Source: a virus. Taken from it: a stretch of 21,182 nucleotides of DNA. Shown here piece by piece: positions 4,861 to 21,182 of this stretch. The notes beneath the pieces were generated by a model. That model had not been told where the DNA came from, did no database searches, and saw only the letters and a list, made by a program, of their open reading frames with translations. The stretch covers positions 1-21,182 of the IMG/VR virus record IMGVR_UViG_3300007623_000039. One strand, 5' to 3'. Position numbers and translations under genes: made by a program. How positions within the stretch are numbered: the stretch's first letter is position 1; every line of letters begins with the position of its first letter.

Positions 4861-5262
4861 TTAATCTCCGTTGATTTCATGGAAATCACCATCATCTAGA
4901 TTGACAATGAATGGAGCAAGAACGGCTTTTTCTTCAGGCTCATTCTCTGGTACACGACCATAGCCATATCTAAGAAGGCTCTCGCCGATTTTACTGATTT
5001 GTGCTAAGATAGCCGCATGAGTGACAGCAGAATACCTGACTGCCTTGAGGGATCTATTATGCTTTTTAATGTAGGCTTCCATAGAGCCATCACGTATAGC
5101 ACACCAGTACTCATCTTCTTTGAGCAGTCTTTCATAATTATCAACAAGTGCATCAATAGGATCAAAGTTCCTTTTATGCATCTTCTTCTTGGCATTCTTT
5201 TCAGTCACTTTCTTCTTACGCTGTAAAGGCTTAACATAGCCTGGAGGCGTTGGTATAGACAT
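4861..5262 (-). CDS. terS: Probable terminase small subunit (133 aa)
   Basis: This gene sits directly upstream of terL, separated by 3 bases, where the small terminase subunit is normally found. That subunit recognises the packaging site and regulates the large subunit. The protein has a strongly basic segment (KPLQRKKKVTEKNAKKKMHKR region, residues 11-31), then helices around DALVDNYERLL and YIKKHNRSLKAVRYSAVTHAAILAQISKIGES, and an acidic C-terminal tail (DDGDFHEINGD) that could contact the large subunit. It is first in its transcription unit, with AGGGA before the ATG. The assignment rests mainly on position, size and composition, since small terminases diverge quickly. Confidence 0.68.
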   Translation of the reverse strand: MSIPTPPGYVKPLQRKKKVTEKNAKKKMHKRNFDPIDALVDNYERLLKEDEYWCAIRDGSMEAYIKKHNRSLKAVRYSAVTHAAILAQISKIGESLLRYGYGRVPENEPEEKAVLAPFIVNLDDGDFHEINGD

Positions 5263-5289
5263 ATTGTTGTCCCTTTATTTTTGAAAGTG

Positions 5290-5335
5290 AAAAATAGCCA
5301 CCATAGAGTACACTAAGTACTAACCTATGATGGCT
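5290..5335 (-). terminator. Hairpin with U-run in the leader of the packaging operon
   Basis: Bases 5296-5306 pair with 5325-5335 (11 bp with one mismatch). An inner stem AGTAC/GTACT (5307-5311 with 5317-5321) encloses a 5-base loop. In minus-strand RNA the hairpin is followed by A and five U. It could be an intrinsic terminator or attenuator, or an RNase processing site, 28 bases upstream of the small terminase start. Confidence 0.5.
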
Positions 5336-5660
5336 TATAACGGACTAATACGATGATATCACCCAGAGGAGCTAGAGGAAAGATTACTCCTAAGATATCA
5401 CTTATGCAGTCCAAATAATAGACGAGTTTGTTCATTTGCAATGGTTAGTCGAAAACGAACCGAACATCAAGCATACCTGAGGAGATATACTGTAGAATTG
5501 CTAAACCGCTACAAGCTTGCAGCGTTTCCCAGAGCACACAACTACTATGCACATTATAGACAATAACAGAACATATTCTCAGTCTAAATAGCAGTTATAC
5601 ACACTAGGCTTCTTTAAGTATTGCGGTAAAGCAACTCTACACTATACCTTCTACAGGTTT

Positions 5661-5690
5661 CAAAAGATTTCAAAAAATTTCAAAAAATTT
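5661..5690. repeat. Three tandem 10-base A-tract repeats
   Basis: Three consecutive units read caaaagattt, caaaaaattt and caaaaaattt, with a partial unit (gcttcaaaattt) at 5709. The period is exactly 10 bases, near the DNA helical repeat, so the A-tracts are in phase and would be expected to bend the DNA. They lie about 60 bases from the A+T-rich block. Confidence 0.75.
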
Positions 5691-5750
5691 GTGGCGAGAA
5701 AGTCACGTGCTTCAAAATTTCCCCTCTTTGGGTACCCTTTGGGTTTCATT

Positions 5751-5880
5751 TAATAATCATTTATAATATATTATTTTATTATAAATAATAATAAATAATA
5801 TTCTTTTATTATCTTTTATAATTAATAATAAATAAATAAATATCTATTAATTACTTTTATATAAAAAACAATAAAGAAAA
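5751..5880. other. Extreme A+T-rich block, possible DNA unwinding element
   Basis: By my count only about seven G or C bases occur in these 130 bases, which are runs of TAATAATAAATAA-like sequence. It codes for nothing plausible. Such a block next to phased A-tracts could be the melting element of a replication origin. This is inference from composition. Confidence 0.5.
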
Positions 5881-6023
5881 ACAACAACAAAGGATTAACT
5901 CAGAGAACTGTTCCCAAGAAGTTTAGCTCTTAGAGACCTTGAGAGGTACCTTAAGAGGGGACTGCTTTTTCACAAAAGATCAGATCCTCTACAAGTCTAA
6001 ACCACTTGTGGTGAACTTTCTCT

Positions 6024-6039
6024 TTAATTTAACAGGTTT
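6024..6039 (-). promoter_or_regulatory. 16-base motif, copy A (candidate promoter or operator)
   Basis: The plus-strand sequence ttaatttaacaggttt is identical to 13709-13724. On the minus strand it reads AAACCTGTTAAATTAA, containing TGTTAAAT, similar to an extended -10 element. It lies after the terminator of the upstream operon and faces the packaging operon. There is no good -35 hexamer here. It could be a promoter for either host or phage polymerase, or a repressor site. Confidence 0.4.
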
Positions 6040-6114
6040 CTAATTCCATGAATTTTAAGAGTTTTTACTTTTGTGTATCTACAGAAGTGTGAATTTATTT
6101 ATAGTGTAAATTTG

Positions 6115-6164
6115 AAAAAAAAAAATAAAGGGTTCCCTCTAGATGCCCGAAGGCACCCAGAGGG
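6115..6164 (-). terminator. Strong intrinsic terminator after the accessory gene run
   Basis: On the minus strand a 13-bp stem (6152-6164 with 6135-6147, including two G-U pairs) closes a UUCG tetraloop. It is followed by a U-rich tract with 11 consecutive U (6115-6125). It begins 9 bases after the stop of the 249-residue gene and should end the accessory transcript. Confidence 0.9.
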
Positions 6165-6172
6165 GATATAGA

Positions 6173-6922
6173 TTAAAACTTAACAGAGACTAGATAGTAG
6201 CTTAGTTTGTAGATAAATTCTTTAGCGTTCTTTAGATCTGCAAAGAATGTACAAACATACCTATCATCTTTGTCTTTATAAACAGGATACATTTTCCATT
6301 TAGTGTTCCTATTATTTTCCGTCATAAGACTTCTAATGCTAGCACTATCAAAGAATACTCTTAAATCCTCAGGATCGTCTTTAGCCAATCTATACACAAC
6401 CCAATAATAATATCCTATATAGTTTTGATCTTGGTGTATACTCCATACATGCTGATCTAGAAGTATAGGTAGTTTTAGTATTTTTTGTACAAATCTATCT
6501 GTTTCTAACTCTTCGGCTAGTTTTTCAAATTCTTCTCTAGTAAGAACATTTCTCTTTTCACTAGGTTCAGAATTCTCTACAGATTGGTCTTCTGAATGTT
6601 CTTGATAGCTTCTATGAAGTTCACCCATTTCCAACTTCTGTTCATATTCTTCTTCCTCTTTTAATACTTGAATATCTTCTTCAAACATCTTATTTCGAAG
6701 ATTATCTAGGCGTTTTAACATACCACCTAATTTATTCTTTTGTATTTCAAAACATACATAATCATTTTCAGTGTTATGCTTGTCAACATGAAGAGTAAAG
6801 CTATGCTGTAACTGAACATCCCTCCCATAACTAAAATGTTCTGCTACTCTTTCAATCCTTCTAGACTTAACTTCTATGTCTAATACTTCAGGCATATCTG
6901 TGTTAGAGATTTTGTATTTCAT
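6173..6922 (-). CDS. Unknown acidic protein (249 aa), last gene of accessory run
   Basis: I do not recognise this protein. Residues 1-60 look like a small beta domain (VLDIEVKSRRIERVAEHFSY, HSFTLHVDK). Residues 64-150 are highly charged and helical with Glu runs (LKEEEEYEQKLEM, FEKLAEELETDRF), probably coiled coil or a disordered linker. The C-terminal 90 residues form an aromatic-rich domain (QNYIGYYYWVVYRLA, FADLKNAKEFIYKLSYY). The ATG overlaps the preceding stop as ATGA, with GGGAG 7 bases upstream, so it is translated together with the 194-residue gene. A strong terminator follows at once. Confidence 0.75.
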   Translation of the reverse strand: MKYKISNTDMPEVLDIEVKSRRIERVAEHFSYGRDVQLQHSFTLHVDKHNTENDYVCFEIQKNKLGGMLKRLDNLRNKMFEEDIQVLKEEEEYEQKLEMGELHRSYQEHSEDQSVENSEPSEKRNVLTREEFEKLAEELETDRFVQKILKLPILLDQHVWSIHQDQNYIGYYYWVVYRLAKDDPEDLRVFFDSASIRSLMTENNRNTKWKMYPVYKDKDDRYVCTFFADLKNAKEFIYKLSYYLVSVKF

Positions 6923-7503
6923 TCAATAGCTCCCAACATTTTTCGAATATCACTATGTGCTGTAGATCGTAAATCCAATACAGTACGAAGATCATGTGCT
7001 AGTGCTCTAGCCTTAGCTTCATCTTTGTTTGTAAACTTAACTACAAACCTAAAAGCAGGCACCTTCTTACAAATTTTAGTGTTTGCTTTTCTGATTTGAA
7101 CTATAGGATGTCCTAGATCTTGAGCTAGATCAAAGAGAGTCTCTTCAACCTGTTCTTTCAAATCTTTATGCACATACAAGTCCATATTACCGTCTTTGAA
7201 GTAAGAAGCATTACAGATCTTCTTAAGCCTTTCTTCAGCTCCTGACCTGACTAACTTTGGTAAAGTTTCAAAAGGTACTTCAACAGTTGGTGATTTACGT
7301 TTAGTCTTAGCTTTAGCTTTAACTTCTGCTTTAACCTTAGCCTTAGACTTGATTTCTGCCTTTTCTAGCTTTTCCATTTCTTCCAGCACTTTAGCGGCCT
7401 TCTCTTGGAGCTCTGTTCGAATAAACTCTACTTTGAGTTGCTGTTCATCAGGCATAGTACTGAATTTTAGTAATTGTACTAGTTCTTTCTTAGTAAGTAT
7501 CAT
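6919..7503 (-). CDS. Unknown protein with coiled coil and Lys/Ala-repeat linker (194 aa)
   Basis: I do not recognise this protein. Residues 1-50 form an amphipathic helix or coiled coil (KKELVQLL to EEMEKLEKAE). Residues 51-71 are a basic linker of alternating Lys-Ala/Val units (KSKAKVKAEVKAKAKTKRK). The rest is a compact domain with NMDLYVHKDLKEQVEETLF and FRFVVKFTNKDEAKARALAHD. The Lys-rich linker could touch nucleic acid, but no known binding fold is visible. It starts 25 bases beyond the terminator-like hairpin at 7528-7548, so it needs read-through or its own promoter. Its stop overlaps the next start by 4 bases. Confidence 0.75.
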   Translation of the reverse strand: MILTKKELVQLLKFSTMPDEQQLKVEFIRTELQEKAAKVLEEMEKLEKAEIKSKAKVKAEVKAKAKTKRKSPTVEVPFETLPKLVRSGAEERLKKICNASYFKDGNMDLYVHKDLKEQVEETLFDLAQDLGHPIVQIRKANTKICKKVPAFRFVVKFTNKDEAKARALAHDLRTVLDLRSTAHSDIRKMLGAIE

Positions 7504-7527
7504 GGTAATTTCCCATTAATTTGATTT

Positions 7528-7548
7528 AAAACCCCCTTATTGGGGGTT
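7528..7548 (-). terminator. Terminator-like hairpin around a stop codon
   Basis: AACCCCC (minus strand, 7542-7548) pairs with GGGGGTT (7530-7536) around a 5-base loop. The loop contains the TAA stop of the 94-residue gene. The stem runs into UUUU, a short U-tract, so termination may be partial. Confidence 0.6.
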
Positions 7549-7821
7549 GTATCTTTCGTGATTTAGACGGTACTTCATACAGTATGCTGTAAAGACCTTA
7601 CGGGCAGGTTTCAATTCCCTTACCCGCTTGGACTCTATAACATCATCACCCTTAAAAAGAGTAATGAAGTAGAAGTTTACAAAGTAGGCATTCTTAAGAG
7701 AGACTGTCATTCTGAGTTCCAGATCTTGTCTCTTAGCTGTCTCTACATAGCCTTCTACCAATGCTGTTTCAGTAAACCAGCCATCTATTGTATAGCGATA
7801 TTCATTTCTAATGATCGTCAT
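7537..7821 (-). CDS. Small unknown protein (94 aa), possible paralogue of the gene at 8026-8307
   Basis: I do not recognise the family. The layout is RYTIDGWFTETALVEGYVET, then alternating strand-like residues (LELRMTVSLKNAYFVNFYFITLFKGDD), then a basic helix (ELKPARKVFTAYCMKYRLNH). The same order WFT..AL..G..ET, beta hairpin and basic C-terminal helix is seen in the gene at 8026-8307, which suggests an old duplication. It overlaps the upstream 72-residue gene by 14 bases and its stop lies inside a terminator-like hairpin. Confidence 0.75.
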   Translation of the reverse strand: MTIIRNEYRYTIDGWFTETALVEGYVETAKRQDLELRMTVSLKNAYFVNFYFITLFKGDDVIESKRVRELKPARKVFTAYCMKYRLNHERYNPQ

Positions 7822-8026
7822 CAGACTCTCTAGATTCTAATAACAATAATAGATCTTCTAGTACTGCTGAACCTTTGTAGATTTGATTTCGAGCTTTAGC
7901 TAAATGTGTCGCTGCTGCTTCTTCATTGAACTCTTCGGCTGCAATGAAAGCATCTTCAAGAACTGTTAACACCTTATCACAAGACGTTAAACAGTCTCCT
8001 ATGCAGTCAGTAAATCGTGTATCCAT
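7808..8026 (-). CDS. Small helical acidic protein (72 aa), unknown
   Basis: The protein is almost entirely helical in appearance, with CIGDCLTSCDKVLTVLEDAF then AAEEFNEEAAATHLAKARNQ and an acidic end (ESRESDDDH). Three Cys in the first 16 residues (CIGDCLTSC) are unusual for its size. The start is coupled to the upstream stop as TAATG, with GGAG 10 bases upstream inside the previous gene. It lies between the two paralogue-like genes at 7537 and 8026. No function can be given. Confidence 0.72.
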   Translation of the reverse strand: MDTRFTDCIGDCLTSCDKVLTVLEDAFIAAEEFNEEAAATHLAKARNQIYKGSAVLEDLLLLLESRESDDDH

Positions 8027-8307
8027 TAAGCTGCTTCTCCATATTTGATACGTTTGGCATGATGCTGTCTCAACATGCGGCTGTAATAATTTTGAGCCGC
8101 ACGAAGAGAGTTGTAGTGCTTTTCAGCTTTATAGTAGCAATGCTTACGAGGAACTTCCTGGTCCTCTGTCCATGTTATTACAACATACTTGTCAACGTTT
8201 CTTTTATACACTAGATTAATAATAAACTCTTCAGTGATAGATGTTTCCATCAGTCCCATTTTCAGAGCATCTGCTGTAAACCATTTACGAGTTGTTACAA
8301 TAGGCAT
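8026..8307 (-). CDS. Small basic unknown protein (93 aa), possible paralogue of the gene at 7537-7821
   Basis: The start has AAGGAG 6 bases upstream. The protein begins with KWFTADALKMGLMETS, matching the WFT..AL..G..ET opening of the gene at 7537, followed by strands (EFIINLVY, DKYVVITWTED) and a basic aromatic C-terminal helix (AEKHYNSLRAAQNYYSRMLRQHHAKR). The basic helix suggests binding to nucleic acid or an acidic partner, but this is inference. Its stop and the next gene's ATG share a base. Confidence 0.77.
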   Translation of the reverse strand: MPIVTTRKWFTADALKMGLMETSITEEFIINLVYKRNVDKYVVITWTEDQEVPRKHCYYKAEKHYNSLRAAQNYYSRMLRQHHAKRIKYGEAA

Positions 8308-8319
8308 GTCAGTCTCCTT

Positions 8320-8574
8320 TTACCAGCTGTCTCTATCTAATTCTACTTTGACATCAAACTCTTCATAAGCCGTATCGCCAAAAAGACTTTTAGCAGATTC
8401 TTCACAATCCACATAGTCTGCTACGTAATCTTCAATCTTTTCTAGAGGAATAGCCTCCCAAGGCATTATCCCTTGATCTTGTCTCATGTGATCCCAGTCT
8501 ATTCCTGAAGCAGCTAGATCAGTATCGTCAATAGTCCAAGTGTTCTTAGTAATGCAAGTTAATGTAATTTTCAT
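8320..8574 (-). CDS. Small acidic unknown protein (84 aa)
   Basis: GAGGAG lies 7 bases before the ATG. The protein opens with strands (MKITLTCITKNTWTIDD) and continues with acidic helices (EKIEDYVADYVDCEESAKSL, YEEFDVKVELDRD). It carries a strong net negative charge. There are no metal-binding, membrane or enzymatic motifs. It stops 12 bases before the start of the 93-residue gene, within an evident run of co-transcribed small genes. I do not recognise it. Confidence 0.75.
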   Translation of the reverse strand: MKITLTCITKNTWTIDDTDLAASGIDWDHMRQDQGIMPWEAIPLEKIEDYVADYVDCEESAKSLFGDTAYEEFDVKVELDRDSW

Positions 8575-8585
8575 TATTTATCTCC

Positions 8586-9032
8586 TCAGATAATAGTTTT
8601 TAGTTCATAGTTGCTGAATGGTACATCATCGTAGAAACCAGCACCGATTTTTCCTTCGGCTTGTAATTTCTCTAATACCTCAATTTCATTTGTGTCTATA
8701 CGCTGAAATGCCCACTTATACTTCTCTAGATGTTCTTCTTCGATCATCGGAGTAGGATGTATGGACACAACTTTTACAAAACGCAAGACATTGGCTTTTA
8801 GGAATATATCGTAGCTTCTAACAACTACAATATCTCCTAATTTGATTGTACCAGCAAAAGCTAGTGAGACTAAGAAGGTATAAGACTTATTAGTCACATC
8901 ATCTACGCCCAACTGATGAAGTTGCTCTTTTGTCAATCGCTTAGCATACTTGCCTGAGATAGTGGTGTACTCAATCTCAGGTTTAATTTCTTTCTTAGAT
9001 TTAGGCTTTACACCTGGCTTTAATTTTGACAT
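8586..9032 (-). CDS. Unknown protein with basic N-terminus (148 aa)
   Basis: AGGAG is well placed before the ATG. The first 20 residues are Lys/Pro-rich (MSKLKPGVKPKSKKEIKPE) and probably disordered. Then come a helix (YAKRLTKEQLHQLGVDD) and a small beta domain with GTIKLGDIVVVRSYD and VLRFVKVVSIHP, reminiscent of an SH3-like or OB-like barrel though not enough to name. The C-terminus is mixed. A DNA- or RNA-contact role would fit the basic tail plus small barrel, but is speculative. Confidence 0.77.
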   Translation of the reverse strand: MSKLKPGVKPKSKKEIKPEIEYTTISGKYAKRLTKEQLHQLGVDDVTNKSYTFLVSLAFAGTIKLGDIVVVRSYDIFLKANVLRFVKVVSIHPTPMIEEEHLEKYKWAFQRIDTNEIEVLEKLQAEGKIGAGFYDDVPFSNYELKTII

Positions 9033-17178: not shown

Positions 17179-18516
17179 CTATTGATTAAGTAAGCGTTCA
17201 AGAGTATCAGCTTCTTCCTTATCATACCTGCGCTCTACAAACCTAGGCAAGAACAATGAATATAGCTCACTATCTCTCTGCTTTATTACTTCGTTATATT
17301 TTACCGCAATGATTGCACCAGCCCAATTATCTTCTCCCCAAGAGTTGAAGATCTTAGCACGCGCTTCATCCGTAAAACCTGATACTGCCACTCGAAGTCT
17401 TCCATCGCTTGTTTCACATAATAGCGAGCCAAATAGATCTTCGTTTTTACCTGTACCTTCCAGCATAGATACGACACATAGATCAGCCTCAGCTTCTTCC
17501 TTAAGCTTAACTTGATCTCGACTAGTACCATTCTTCCAAAGTCCATCAGGTCTCTTAATAATTGTACCCTCTTCACCTGCTTTCCTCTTCTCAGCAAAGT
17601 CTTTTTGTGCTTCCTCTAACGAGTACACACAGTTGGTTTCTATAGCACGTAAATGTGAACTCTTACAGAACATGTGTATACATGTCATAAGTTCATTTAT
17701 GCGCTGTTCGTATTCTCTAGGAGATTTTCCTTGCTTGGCCTCTTCATTAGAGATCATATCCCATGCAATATAGCATAGTGCAAGATTAGCGGGAATATCA
17801 GCATTAGTTTTGAGAATACTATTGAGGATACCATTTCCTGTTTTACGATCTAAAAACTTACCACCTCTCATTACAAGAAGTTCACCAGATAGTTGTACAC
17901 CTTCAGGTATAGCTGACTTGATGTTTTCTTTAAGAATCTTAAATCGTTCATTATCAGGAAACACATGACCCTTACGAGTAAAGAAATCAACAGAATTATT
18001 GCATACTGCTGTAGCATACATTCCGTCCATCTTCACTTGAGAGAATACTCCACGTTCCCAAGGCCAAGTCTCAAGCTTGACATCTTTAGGCAGAGAACAT
18101 CTCATGTAGGGGTGTTCTGTAAGTAACTTTGCGCCATATGCTTTGTTTACAAGCTTGACACCAATGTTAGCTTTCAGATCTTTATTTAGGATATCTACGA
18201 GTAACATGGAAGACTTAGGGGATAAATGCTTAAGTTCATAATCAACATGAGCTAAAGCTTCATTCCCTGTAAGTTTCCTTGAGTGTAGATCTCCTAGCAA
18301 ATTTAGTGTTCTTTCTCCAAACACTGCACAGGCACCTTGAGGTGGCTTGACATATTCTGGAAGAACACCAAAGTTAGCGAGAGGCTCCATTGCTATTGTG
18401 ATAACCCATTTAAAAGAGGCATCCTGAAGATACCTCTCTAATAGCTCACGCTTAGCATTTATGGAACTCTCTTGAGCTATGACACGAATAGCATCATAGA
18501 TTTCGTCAGAGTTCAT
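17179..18516 (-). CDS. ATP-dependent DNA ligase (445 aa)
   Basis: The enzyme seals nicks in DNA through a lysine-AMP intermediate. In the 445-residue numbering the motifs are: I VKMDG (nucleophile Lys162), Ia FFTRKG (Arg181), III SGELLV (Glu212), IIIa YIAWDM, IV GEEGTIIKR (Glu316) and V VKLKE (Lys337, Lys339). An N-terminal helical domain precedes them (residues 1-140) and an OB-fold domain follows. The size is close to that of T4-type ligase, larger than T7 ligase. An upstream start at 18546 lacks support, while AGGAG precedes the ATG at 18516. It lies between the helicase and nucleotide-metabolism genes, fitting DNA replication and repair. Confidence 0.95.
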   Translation of the reverse strand: MNSDEIYDAIRVIAQESSINAKRELLERYLQDASFKWVITIAMEPLANFGVLPEYVKPPQGACAVFGERTLNLLGDLHSRKLTGNEALAHVDYELKHLSPKSSMLLVDILNKDLKANIGVKLVNKAYGAKLLTEHPYMRCSLPKDVKLETWPWERGVFSQVKMDGMYATAVCNNSVDFFTRKGHVFPDNERFKILKENIKSAIPEGVQLSGELLVMRGGKFLDRKTGNGILNSILKTNADIPANLALCYIAWDMISNEEAKQGKSPREYEQRINELMTCIHMFCKSSHLRAIETNCVYSLEEAQKDFAEKRKAGEEGTIIKRPDGLWKNGTSRDQVKLKEEAEADLCVVSMLEGTGKNEDLFGSLLCETSDGRLRVAVSGFTDEARAKIFNSWGEDNWAGAIIAVKYNEVIKQRDSELYSLFLPRFVERRYDKEEADTLERLLNQ

Positions 18517-18533
18517 AATACTACTCCTAGAGT

Positions 18534-18713
18534 TTACAAGCGGCACGCTCCACCAGCACAGTCTGACATATCTAGCTCAGACATTTCTTTAGCTTCTTCA
18601 TATGCCATTTTGACTTTATCGAAAGCACCTGTCTTTAGATCACGTACTTCGTAAAGTGCATATAATGCCATATCAATCTCGAATAACTCTTCAACGGTCA
18701 GGTCTACTAGCAC
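18534..18713 (-). CDS. Small acidic protein with GTG start (59 aa)
   Basis: The frame opens at a GTG at 18713 and ends 17 bases before the ligase ATG. AAGGA lies about 9 bases upstream. The protein is LVDLTVEELFEIDMALYALY then EVRDLKTGAFDKVKMAYEEA, ending DMSDCAGGACRL. It has good coding character, two Cys in a C-terminal CAGGAC, and no other candidate frame in this 150-base interval. It overlaps the end of the upstream gene by 23 bases. I do not recognise it; the C-terminal Cys pair may form a disulphide or bind metal. Confidence 0.8.
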   Translation of the reverse strand: MLVDLTVEELFEIDMALYALYEVRDLKTGAFDKVKMAYEEAKEMSELDMSDCAGGACRL

Positions 18714-19024: not shown

Positions 19025-19250
19025 TTTGCTCTAACCATTGGTCATGGATGAGTATTCCATTCTGCAATATTTCATATGGTTTTGGATGATGAACAAGCCC
19101 TAACACATGAGTCCAGCACTTTGTACCTTTGTGCAATTTGTGCTTTACCATTGCTTTGCCTGTCTTTCTCAGGATACCATTAGGCTCCTTACCTTTGTTT
19201 AGGTAAAGAGCTAACTGGCAATCTAACATAAAACTGTTAGTCTCACTCAT
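19011..19250 (-). CDS. Small basic protein (79 aa), unknown
   Basis: The ATG overlaps the helicase stop as ATGA, so it is translated by re-initiation. The protein reads FMLDCQLALYLNKGKEPNGI, then a basic Lys/His-rich stretch (KAMVKHKLHKGTKCWTHVLG) and an end IHDQWLEQNEVL. The basic middle might bind nucleic acid. I do not recognise the family. It sits between helicase and ligase, consistent with a replication or regulatory role by context only. Confidence 0.7.
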   Translation of the reverse strand: MSETNSFMLDCQLALYLNKGKEPNGILRKTGKAMVKHKLHKGTKCWTHVLGLVHHPKPYEILQNGILIHDQWLEQNEVL

Positions 19251-21182
19251 AATATTTGGAAGTCTCCATCATCTTCGTCTTCAGGAACAAAGTCCAGCGC
19301 TTCAAGGCGACCAGTCTTGTGGTTGAATCTAGCGCCTTCTACTGGTCCAGTTAGACCTGTAAAACGAGCTTTGAGTACAGCCATCTTGATCTGGTTACGC
19401 TCTACATCCTTCTCAGCATTCATGTTCCTAGCAAAAGCAATAATATCAAATGATATCTGCTTTATAGAACCAGAGTTGTGAGTTATTATGTGATTTTCTA
19501 ATAGAAACCTTCCATCGGAATCCAAAGTAAACCCATAGTAATCTTGGACGTCAAGTTTGGTAACTTTAATACCTCTTTTCAAGGGATTTGTGTACCTATC
19601 TCTGTATTTCACACCTACTAGCTTCTGTGCAGTTATTGAGGATATATTTCCTGTTACAGAAACTTCCCAAATACTGCTACCATCAGAACTATAAGGAGAA
19701 CTGATAATTCTAGCGTTCATTGTGCTATACAATCCAAGAGATCTCGCCAGCCTTACAACAGACTTTGCAATATCAGTATCCTTTTGATAGAATCTGAATG
19801 CATTGTCTTTCTTAGAATAACTACCATCTGTATCTAACAACCCCGCCAACAGCTCTAGCCTATCTTTCTTAGAAGAAAGCAAGTAGACCTCAGGTATGTG
19901 TTTATTATTTACAAGATTTAAATCTCTAAGCTTGGCTAACAATTCACCTCTAATTCTGGTTTCGAAGCTAAAGTATTCACGATTAATATTGCCTGGAGTT
20001 TTAACTCTTGCTCCTAACGTCATGCCCACTCGCTCTGCAATACCTAAGTTACCGGCATCCATTACTCTGAATTGGGACTTAGAACCATCTCCTATCCAAG
20101 CACCTAATGCATAAGGCGCAATAGGCAATTCTTGCTTAGGAAGTTCATATCCTTCAGAATAATGTTGTTTGCAGCGCGACTTGAAGCTTTCTGAGCGTTT
20201 AATAAAATCCTTTACAGAAATGTCAAACATTTTATTATTATGAGATAGTGTCAGCATATGATCTTCATTACAAATAAAGAAATCATTAGAAGTCTTCATC
20301 TGAATTTTATACATTTGCTGCTTACCTCTACAGAGCTTTAACACTCGCCTCTCAGAGCCATCAACACCCATAAGAGTGTCGCCAACTTTCACGTCTTCAA
20401 CACATACAGACTTTCCGTCAGAAGTTAACACTTTTGTGCCATATGCCAGACAGCCTCTGATATCATCCATAGTAGGCAGCTTGCCATCTTCAAATGATTG
20501 TTTACCAGAAGGGGCTTTACGCAAGTGTGATATCAAGCCTATCCATAAGTCTGGATATTTCTTTACTAGTCTCAGCAGGTCGTTCATAATCTTGTCTTGA
20601 GCTTCAAGACCTTGCAGATTCTCAACACCTTCTGATACTAGAATAGTAACGTGGTCAACAAACAGATATTTACATCCGCTGAGTGCCATGTACTCTAGCT
20701 TGTCAATAATTGAAGTATCATTCATAGAGCCTTGATGATCTAATAAAATGACTTTTTCATTACCGAACACTTTGTCAAAACCAACACGTAATTCATCAAG
20801 TGGAATTTCTTCATCGGCTGGATTGCGATTAAGAGCCATGCCTGATAGTTTTCGTGCAGTTTCTGCGGGTGACTCTTCTAGGCTGATAACACCAATTTTA
20901 TCATCAGTATCTTCAAGGACTTTCAACATGATCTCACGGAACATGGTAGATTTACCACTATTATGTGTAACAACAAAATTGCCTAACACAAAGCGGTTAT
21001 TACCGTCCAATTTAAAGCCATAGAAGTCCTCCTCTTCTAGAAGCTCTATTGTGAAAGAATATCTTCTAGGGTTTTTCTTTTGAAGCCTAGTTCTAGCTTG
21101 CTTCCTAGGTAAAACGCAAGGGATTTTCTCTAGTCCCTCTCCTGAAATATAAAGCCTGAAACAATTTCCAAACTTGTTATTC
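19247..21182 (-). CDS. T7 gp4-like replicative DNA helicase with two inteins (cut at its N-terminus by the window edge)
   Basis: Both inteins keep the frame open, so one polypeptide crosses the whole region. After removal of inteins the visible helicase reads SGKST (end of Walker A), VISLEESPAETARKLSG, FGNEKVILLDH, YLFVDHVTILVS (Walker B region), LISHLRKAPSGK, MDDIRG-SGSIKQISFD and IIAFARN, then VLKARFTGLTGP and FNHKTGRLE. This order matches T7 gp4 (LEES, LDHISIVVS, CHLKNP, DLRGSG, IIALERN, LKCRFTGDTG). The C-terminus is acidic (VPEDEDDGDFQIL), as in T7 gp4, where it contacts the polymerase. Any primase domain would lie beyond 21182. Splicing must occur for function. Confidence 0.95.
   Translation of the reverse strand, partial: NNKFGNCFRLYISGEGLEKIPCVLPRKQARTRLQKKNPRRYSFTIELLEEEDFYGFKLDGNNRFVLGNFVVTHNSGKSTMFREIMLKVLEDTDDKIGVISLEESPAETARKLSGMALNRNPADEEIPLDELRVGFDKVFGNEKVILLDHQGSMNDTSIIDKLEYMALSGCKYLFVDHVTILVSEGVENLQGLEAQDKIMNDLLRLVKKYPDLWIGLISHLRKAPSGKQSFEDGKLPTMDDIRGCLAYGTKVLTSDGKSVCVEDVKVGDTLMGVDGSERRVLKLCRGKQQMYKIQMKTSNDFFICNEDHMLTLSHNNKMFDISVKDFIKRSESFKSRCKQHYSEGYELPKQELPIAPYALGAWIGDGSKSQFRVMDAGNLGIAERVGMTLGARVKTPGNINREYFSFETRIRGELLAKLRDLNLVNNKHIPEVYLLSSKKDRLELLAGLLDTDGSYSKKDNAFRFYQKDTDIAKSVVRLARSLGLYSTMNARIISSPYSSDGSSIWEVSVTGNISSITAQKLVGVKYRDRYTNPLKRGIKVTKLDVQDYYGFTLDSDGRFLLENHIITHNSGSIKQISFDIIAFARNMNAEKDVERNQIKMAVLKARFTGLTGPVEGARFNHKTGRLEALDFVPEDEDDGDFQIL
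19475..20452 (-). other. Intein 2 with LAGLIDADG homing endonuclease (326 aa)
   Basis: The element begins with Cys1 (CLAYGTKVLTSDGK, splicing block A) and has a block-B-like segment (FFICNEDHMLTL, His65). It ends with blocks F and G (DYYGFTLDSDGRFLLENHII then THN), followed by Ser at +1. These are the residues for standard class 1 splicing. The central region contains two LAGLIDADG motifs, ALGAWIGDG (intein residues 115-123) and LAGLLDTDG (202-210), each with an acidic residue at the expected place, so the nuclease may be active. It interrupts the helicase between IRG and SGSIKQ. The expected in-frame joining restores RGSGSIKQ. Confidence 0.95.
20960..21182 (-). other. Intein 1, C-terminal part, inside the helicase Walker A loop
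   Basis: The last about 74 residues of a separate intein are present. The frame is open to the window edge, and the end reads DFYGFKLDGNNRFVLGNFVV then THN, with Ser at +1 in SGKST. These are the F and G splicing blocks. The same block in intein 2 is YYGFTLDSDGRFLLENHIITHN, so the two are related but diverged. Its start, its Cys1 and any endonuclease are outside the window, so function cannot be judged fully. Confidence 0.9.

Follow-up and report, generated by a model that had tools for sequence, protein, structure and literature searches.

The stretch of DNA analysed here, referred to as the window, is a viral record of 21,182 bp (IMG/VR IMGVR_UViG_3300007623_000039, positions 1 to 21,182), one end of which holds the C-terminal half of a T7 gp4-type primase-helicase interrupted by two predicted inteins, the one complete and the other represented by its last residues. 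The frame runs on the minus strand from 21181 to 19250, is open for 644 codons from the window edge and closes with the stop at 19249-19247; its parts are collected in Table 1, together with a neighbouring gene (↓ marks an insertion point or splice junction throughout). Neither a tRNA nor any Rfam family, group I introns included, was found in the window, and nucleotide relationship to named phages is confined to short stretches of only 65-70% identity (DSS3_VP1, DSS3_PM1, Roseobacter phage CRP-7).

Table 1. Features of the interrupted helicase gene and its surroundings; positions refer to the window unless another record is named
Feature	Position	Strand	Basis or remark
Intein 1, last 74 residues	20960..21181	-	ends FVVTHN, then Ser+1
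Intein 1 in full, 326 aa (N-terminal 252 aa outside the window)	L002:6004-6981		SGTG↓CLQKSTEVLM...FVVTHN↓SGKST
Central extein, 169 aa, from SGKST (Walker A) to DDIRG (helicase motif 4)	20453..20959	-	alignment to T7 gp4
Intein 2, complete, 326 aa, Cys1 ... His325-Asn326, Ser+1	19475..20452	-	Pfam, AlphaFold, Foldseek
Intein 2, first LAGLIDADG motif, LGAWIGDGS, residues 116-124, Asp122	20081..20107	-	
Intein 2, second LAGLIDADG motif, LLAGLLDTDGSY, residues 201-212, Asp209	19817..19852	-	LAGLIDADG_3 E 1e-6, Hom_end E 6e-6
C-terminal extein, SGSIKQ to helicase end, 75 aa	19250..19474	-	stop codon 19247-19249
ATP-dependent DNA ligase, neighbouring replication gene	17179..18546	-	phrog_114 E 1e-101; PF01068

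The N-terminal part of intein 1 was supplied by two assemblies that extend beyond the window edge at 21182, namely L002 (IMGVR_UViG_3300007778_000013; 99.7% nucleotide identity to the window over 4.2 kb) and L003 (3300026123_000064; 99.96% identity over 5.6 kb). About a quarter of intein 1 is located inside the window and the remainder comes from a separate, near-identical assembly; Cys1, read from L002 and L003 beyond the window, and both LAGLIDADG motifs are present. In L002 the helicase gene is a frame of 1,230 codons (5002-8691) that contains both inteins at full length; the two assemblies differ at 8 nucleotides within the gene, 7 of the differences being synonymous, and are concordant over 11 kb. 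The splice junctions THN↓SGKST (20960/20959) and THN↓SGSIKQ (19475/19474) lie where the original prediction had put them, in a frame unbroken across both, with intein 2 bounded as IRG↓CLAY...THN↓SGSIKQ. That prediction had also been made to depend on there being, beyond 21182, an intein N-terminus that starts with Cys or Ser and, since the N-terminus with Cys1 is present in L002 and L003, the objection falls away. Upstream of the helicase in L002 is a DNA polymerase A gene, a second upstream gene reads like a 5'-3' exonuclease, and the DNA ligase gene is found downstream; the polymerase and ligase neighbours make up a replication module. A gene for a SegE-type GIY-YIG endonuclease (PF19835, E 2e-17) stands directly 5' of the helicase (L002:4356-4844, outside the window), and another such gene is likewise placed directly upstream of the helicase in the related record L113 (571-1227).

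An alignment of 14 intein-free relatives, used as query, matched the T7 gp4 structure over nearly its full length (PDB 6n7i; E 7e-92, profile 10-552), and the full protein matched Toprim_2 (E 1e-11); a match to the primase/helicase family phrog_239 (E 1e-121) was also obtained. The protein shares with T7 gp4 the zinc-binding site and the Toprim primase joined to a RecA-type helicase, and it is distinguished by its inteins, of which T7 gp4 has none. Site 1 corresponds to the bond between G315 and M316 of T7 gp4, inside Walker A, three residues ahead of Lys318, and site 2 to that between G488 and S489 in the motif 4 segment DLRG↓SGALRQ; the proposed T7 gp4-type identity of the helicase and the placement of both inteins in essential motifs are thus upheld. 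Chance is excluded by the intein-free relatives, which run continuously through SGTG-SGKST and D-I-[RK]-G-SGSIKQ at exactly the two insertion points. Judged from position, a 326-residue insert at site 1 or at site 2 would be expected to disrupt the ATP site or the loop for DNA binding, respectively, and because both inserts are positioned in essential motifs it follows that helicase activity would depend on two splicing events. The P-loop intein of RadA, cited in PMC6195587, is a published precedent.

Both inserts are most likely class 1 inteins, and each includes a predicted LAGLIDADG homing endonuclease. Cys1, the terminal His-Asn and Ser+1 occur in both, and Pfam Hom_end_hint extends over the two of them (E 6e-48 for the full protein; E 4e-29 for the window alone). 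Across 38 inteins, Cys1, His65 (the conserved block B histidine) and Asn326 are invariant, and a Hint fold is indicated by the AlphaFold model of intein 2 (built with 37 relatives; pLDDT 93), for which Foldseek returned PI-SceI as the closest structure (E 9e-25, TM 0.83). The two LAGLIDADG motifs are intact in both inteins and retain their acidic residues (LGDG/IGDG, DTDG). PI-SceI, the intein of yeast VMA1, is hence the nearest relative by solved fold and also by sequence family; it differs in its eukaryotic V-ATPase host and in its length of 454 aa, compared to 326 aa here. Its insertion point in the V-ATPase P-loop, G↓CGKT, is one that we take to be the same Walker A position as site 1.

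Based on this evidence, we consider it about 90% probable that the gene harbours two class 1 inteins that were acquired separately and bear endonucleases, and that, as read from the sequence, would have to splice before the helicase can function. In the mechanism proposed, the gene product would be a precursor of about 1,220 aa, a T7 gp4-type primase-helicase interrupted by one class 1 intein inside Walker A (SGTG↓SGKST) and by a second inside the DNA-binding loop of motif 4 (DIRG↓SGSIKQ). Other phages in this helicase lineage probably donated the inteins, each in a homing event of its own. Once translated, the two inteins would excise themselves through attack by Cys1, transfer to Ser+1 and cyclisation of Asn, to leave an unscarred helicase as the product of the two excisions. 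Until both are removed, presumably neither the ATP site nor the loop that binds DNA can form; the occurrence of splicing, its timing and the inactivity of the precursor are what we infer from this arrangement.

Separate acquisition is suggested by the kinship of the two inteins. Over their full length they are 35% identical (E 1e-63), as compared to 53-61% identity between intein 1 and four other site 1 inteins and 57-63% between intein 2 and five other site 2 inteins, the degenerate site 1 intein of L088 being the exception with 37%. Recent duplication within the gene is ruled out because each intein is closer to most same-site inteins of other phages (about 54-64%). From the related C-termini the original prediction had suspected a common source, and this stands in so far as both inteins belong to one broad Hom_end-hint family, but a recent copy within the gene does not agree with the closer same-site kin. 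Among 68 inteins placed in a tree, those at site 1 group in a single clade (100/97) and those at site 2 in a separate clade elsewhere (100/100). Nearest to the site 1 clade (97/80) stand inteins in SGHG↓[ST]GK[ST] P-loops of proteins other than the helicase.

As an alternative, one of the two inteins may have given rise to the other by a jump within the helicase gene, which we judge unlikely. The full-length similarity of the two inteins argues for it, as does an earlier tree with fewer outgroups that grouped the two sites to the exclusion of other P-loop inteins (98/98), and when both sites were forced into one clade the AU test returned p 0.485. Once more outgroups are included, however, the two clades come apart and site 1 falls nearest to the SGHG↓[ST]GK[ST] inteins, and with most same-site inteins of other phages so much more similar, any jump would be old. 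For a deep joint origin of both sites, the AU result is neither support nor rejection. Inteins of the SGHG↓[ST]GK[ST] type were seen in other P-loop proteins of L249, L291, L303 and L322, some of them in bacterial genomes; their grouping with the helicase site 1 inteins suggests that an intein may have jumped between the P-loops of different genes.

Helicases of the same type in IMG/VR display all four states. Both inteins are present in three lineages (that of the window, L002/L003; L004; L118), site 1 alone is occupied in L012, L013, L034, L088 and L100, also L233 and L261, site 2 alone in L005, L006, L007, L010, L111 and L114, also L224 and L226, and many relatives have empty sites; the searches favoured either inteins or uninterrupted helicases, so that counts of these states do not represent allele frequencies. 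Mapped on a tree of 78 exteins, the distribution implies at least 7 gains or losses at site 1 and at least 9 at site 2. In L004, the second of the double-intein phages, a LAGLIDADG intein is also found in the ribonucleotide reductase gene (L004:11835-13838).

The closest view of an insertion is offered by L006, which has intein 2, and L032, where the site is empty. The two are about 95-98% identical around the gene and differ by an exact, in-frame intein of 969 nt. With a tract boundary picked after inspection of the data, the 620 nt upstream of the insertion are 88% identical (81 differences in about 640 nt), compared to 98% in the rest of the gene (20 differences in about 1,100 nt). Across L006:5900-6525, divergence from L032 is raised upstream of the insertion only, with almost none downstream. 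The upstream tract is as would be expected for the mark of recent homing with co-conversion from the donor. The donor of this insertion was not found: L007, considered for that role, matched the tract at 35 of 81 informative sites, not much better than the 27 of L032, and the case for co-conversion is consequently the local jump in divergence itself. L111 and L176, examined as a second empty-site pair, have exteins only about 77-79% identical and lack a clear tract. Intein 2 of L006 and that of L007 are 92% identical in DNA, in the midst of exteins that are mostly about 60-75% identical, and dN/dS for this pair is 0.14 over the whole intein and 0.10 over the endonuclease part, so that in the single pair tested the endonuclease appears to be under purifying selection. 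It is by comparison in relatives only, through the L006/L032 pair and the patchy tree, that mobility is indicated.

At site 1, the whole homing cycle is visible among the relatives in the form of intact endonucleases, degenerate ones (LAGLIDADG reduced to LGAS and DTN in L013; also degenerate in L088) and mini-inteins of 143 aa in L100 and 137 aa in L118. The mini-intein of L118 (helicase frame from 2129) ends in ITYN↓SGKST, its penultimate His replaced by Tyr, and is accompanied by a full intein 2 in the same gene. These observations weigh on the idea that the inteins are retained because conditional splicing, as a redox, metal or stress switch, regulates replication, and not as selfish elements. 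Function does require that the motifs containing the two sites be intact, and regulated splicing of DnaBi1 has been proposed for Mycobacterium smegmatis DnaB (PMC6195587). Patchy distribution, including near-identical phages with and without intein 2, the purifying selection on the endonuclease in the pair tested, and the presence of every stage of the homing cycle, decayed and mini-inteins included, all count against a regulatory role, which we regard as improbable; no benefit to the phage is needed to account for them. That the frame is instead a dead or misassembled gene in a phage relying on another helicase is barely credible, for although the gene is known from metagenomic contigs alone, two assemblies agree on it, the catalytic and splice residues are all there, it sits between polymerase and ligase genes, as would be expected in a functioning replication module, and two more lineages share the double state.

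Unexpectedly, in a related helicase, that of L113, a group I intron of 689 nt (L113:2814-3502; Rfam RF00028, 78 bits) interrupts Walker A in a gene that also has intein 2. Its excision joins GGT to AAG and restores SGTSCG-KSTIMREI, as found in L147, L151 and L169; the last exon base is U and the last intron base G, which is usual for group I introns. The intron point (SGTSCG↓KST) is 6 nt beyond that of intein 1 (SGTG↓SGKST). The 134-aa ORF of the intron had no family match, one exact-pattern scan for further copies matched only L113, and the signal came from the covariance model, whereas energy folding gave none (z -0.33). On balance we incline to see the Walker A codons of this lineage as a target contested by inteins and a group I intron. 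Since L113 carries the intron together with intein 2, production of its helicase would call for splicing once at the RNA level and once at the protein level. If the view of a contested target is true, the lineage with its empty, single, double, mini-intein and intron states represents a natural series on the interference and succession of neighbouring selfish elements. Group I introns above the Rfam cut-off were recorded in 16 of 48 records of the phage group (L002, L004, L006, L010, L100, L114 and others); four are clustered at 50.8-53.0 kb of L006, and those of L100 surround what our reading of the ORFs suggests is an RNA-polymerase-like gene.

Replicative helicases with two inteins are already published (PMC6195587, PMC10643990), and P-loop inteins are commonplace in phages (PMC5050341). 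For a gp4-type helicase with two inteins, no report was found in the literature searched, the scope of which excluded most subscription journals. In M. smegmatis DnaB (PMC6195587), site b in the P-loop is occupied by DnaBi1 and site a in motif H4 by DnaBi2. That enzyme is, like the present one, a RecA-type hexameric replicative helicase with inteins in the same regions, the P-loop and the DNA-binding loop of motif 4, but it belongs to a bacterial host and not to a phage primase-helicase. DnaBi1 is a class 3 mini-intein lacking an endonuclease and inserted at the Mg2+-binding Ser (GK↓S), whereas both inteins here are of class 1 and have one; site 1 (G↓SGKST) is a few residues upstream of the DnaBi1 site. 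Presumably, site 2 is shifted by about two residues relative to the DnaB-a site. The two inteins are therefore not alleles of DnaB-a and DnaB-b, for their host is of gp4 type and the same motifs are interrupted at other codons (G315↓M316 in the case of site 1). In phages, two inteins in one essential P-loop gene are known from the TerL of cyanophage Mic1 (PMC7156551) and of a crAss-like phage (PMC7886860), with the difference that TerL is a packaging ATPase, not a helicase, and that one of the Mic1 inteins is in the nuclease domain.

Lastly, the value of the present case derives mainly from the natural series around it, while the general picture of what inteins are is unchanged. The lineage supplies sequence-defined intein pairs for studies of splicing and of endonuclease activity. 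A further parallel is found in the MCM-a and MCM-d inteins of Haloferax, again two endonuclease-bearing inteins, at separate sites, in one replicative helicase of which empty, single and double alleles coexist (PMC10643990); MCM is an archaeal AAA+ helicase, and homing was shown by experiment there and is deduced from comparison here. According to the Haloferax work, a gene comes to hold two endonuclease-bearing inteins only where both single-invaded alleles are common, because two neighbouring inteins hinder each other's homing (PMC10643990). The phage helicase lineage offers just such a set, with empty sites, both single states, three double lineages (in one of which, L118, only a mini-intein is left at site 1) and one insertion of very recent date, and it would thus allow the idea developed in Haloferax to be tested in phages.
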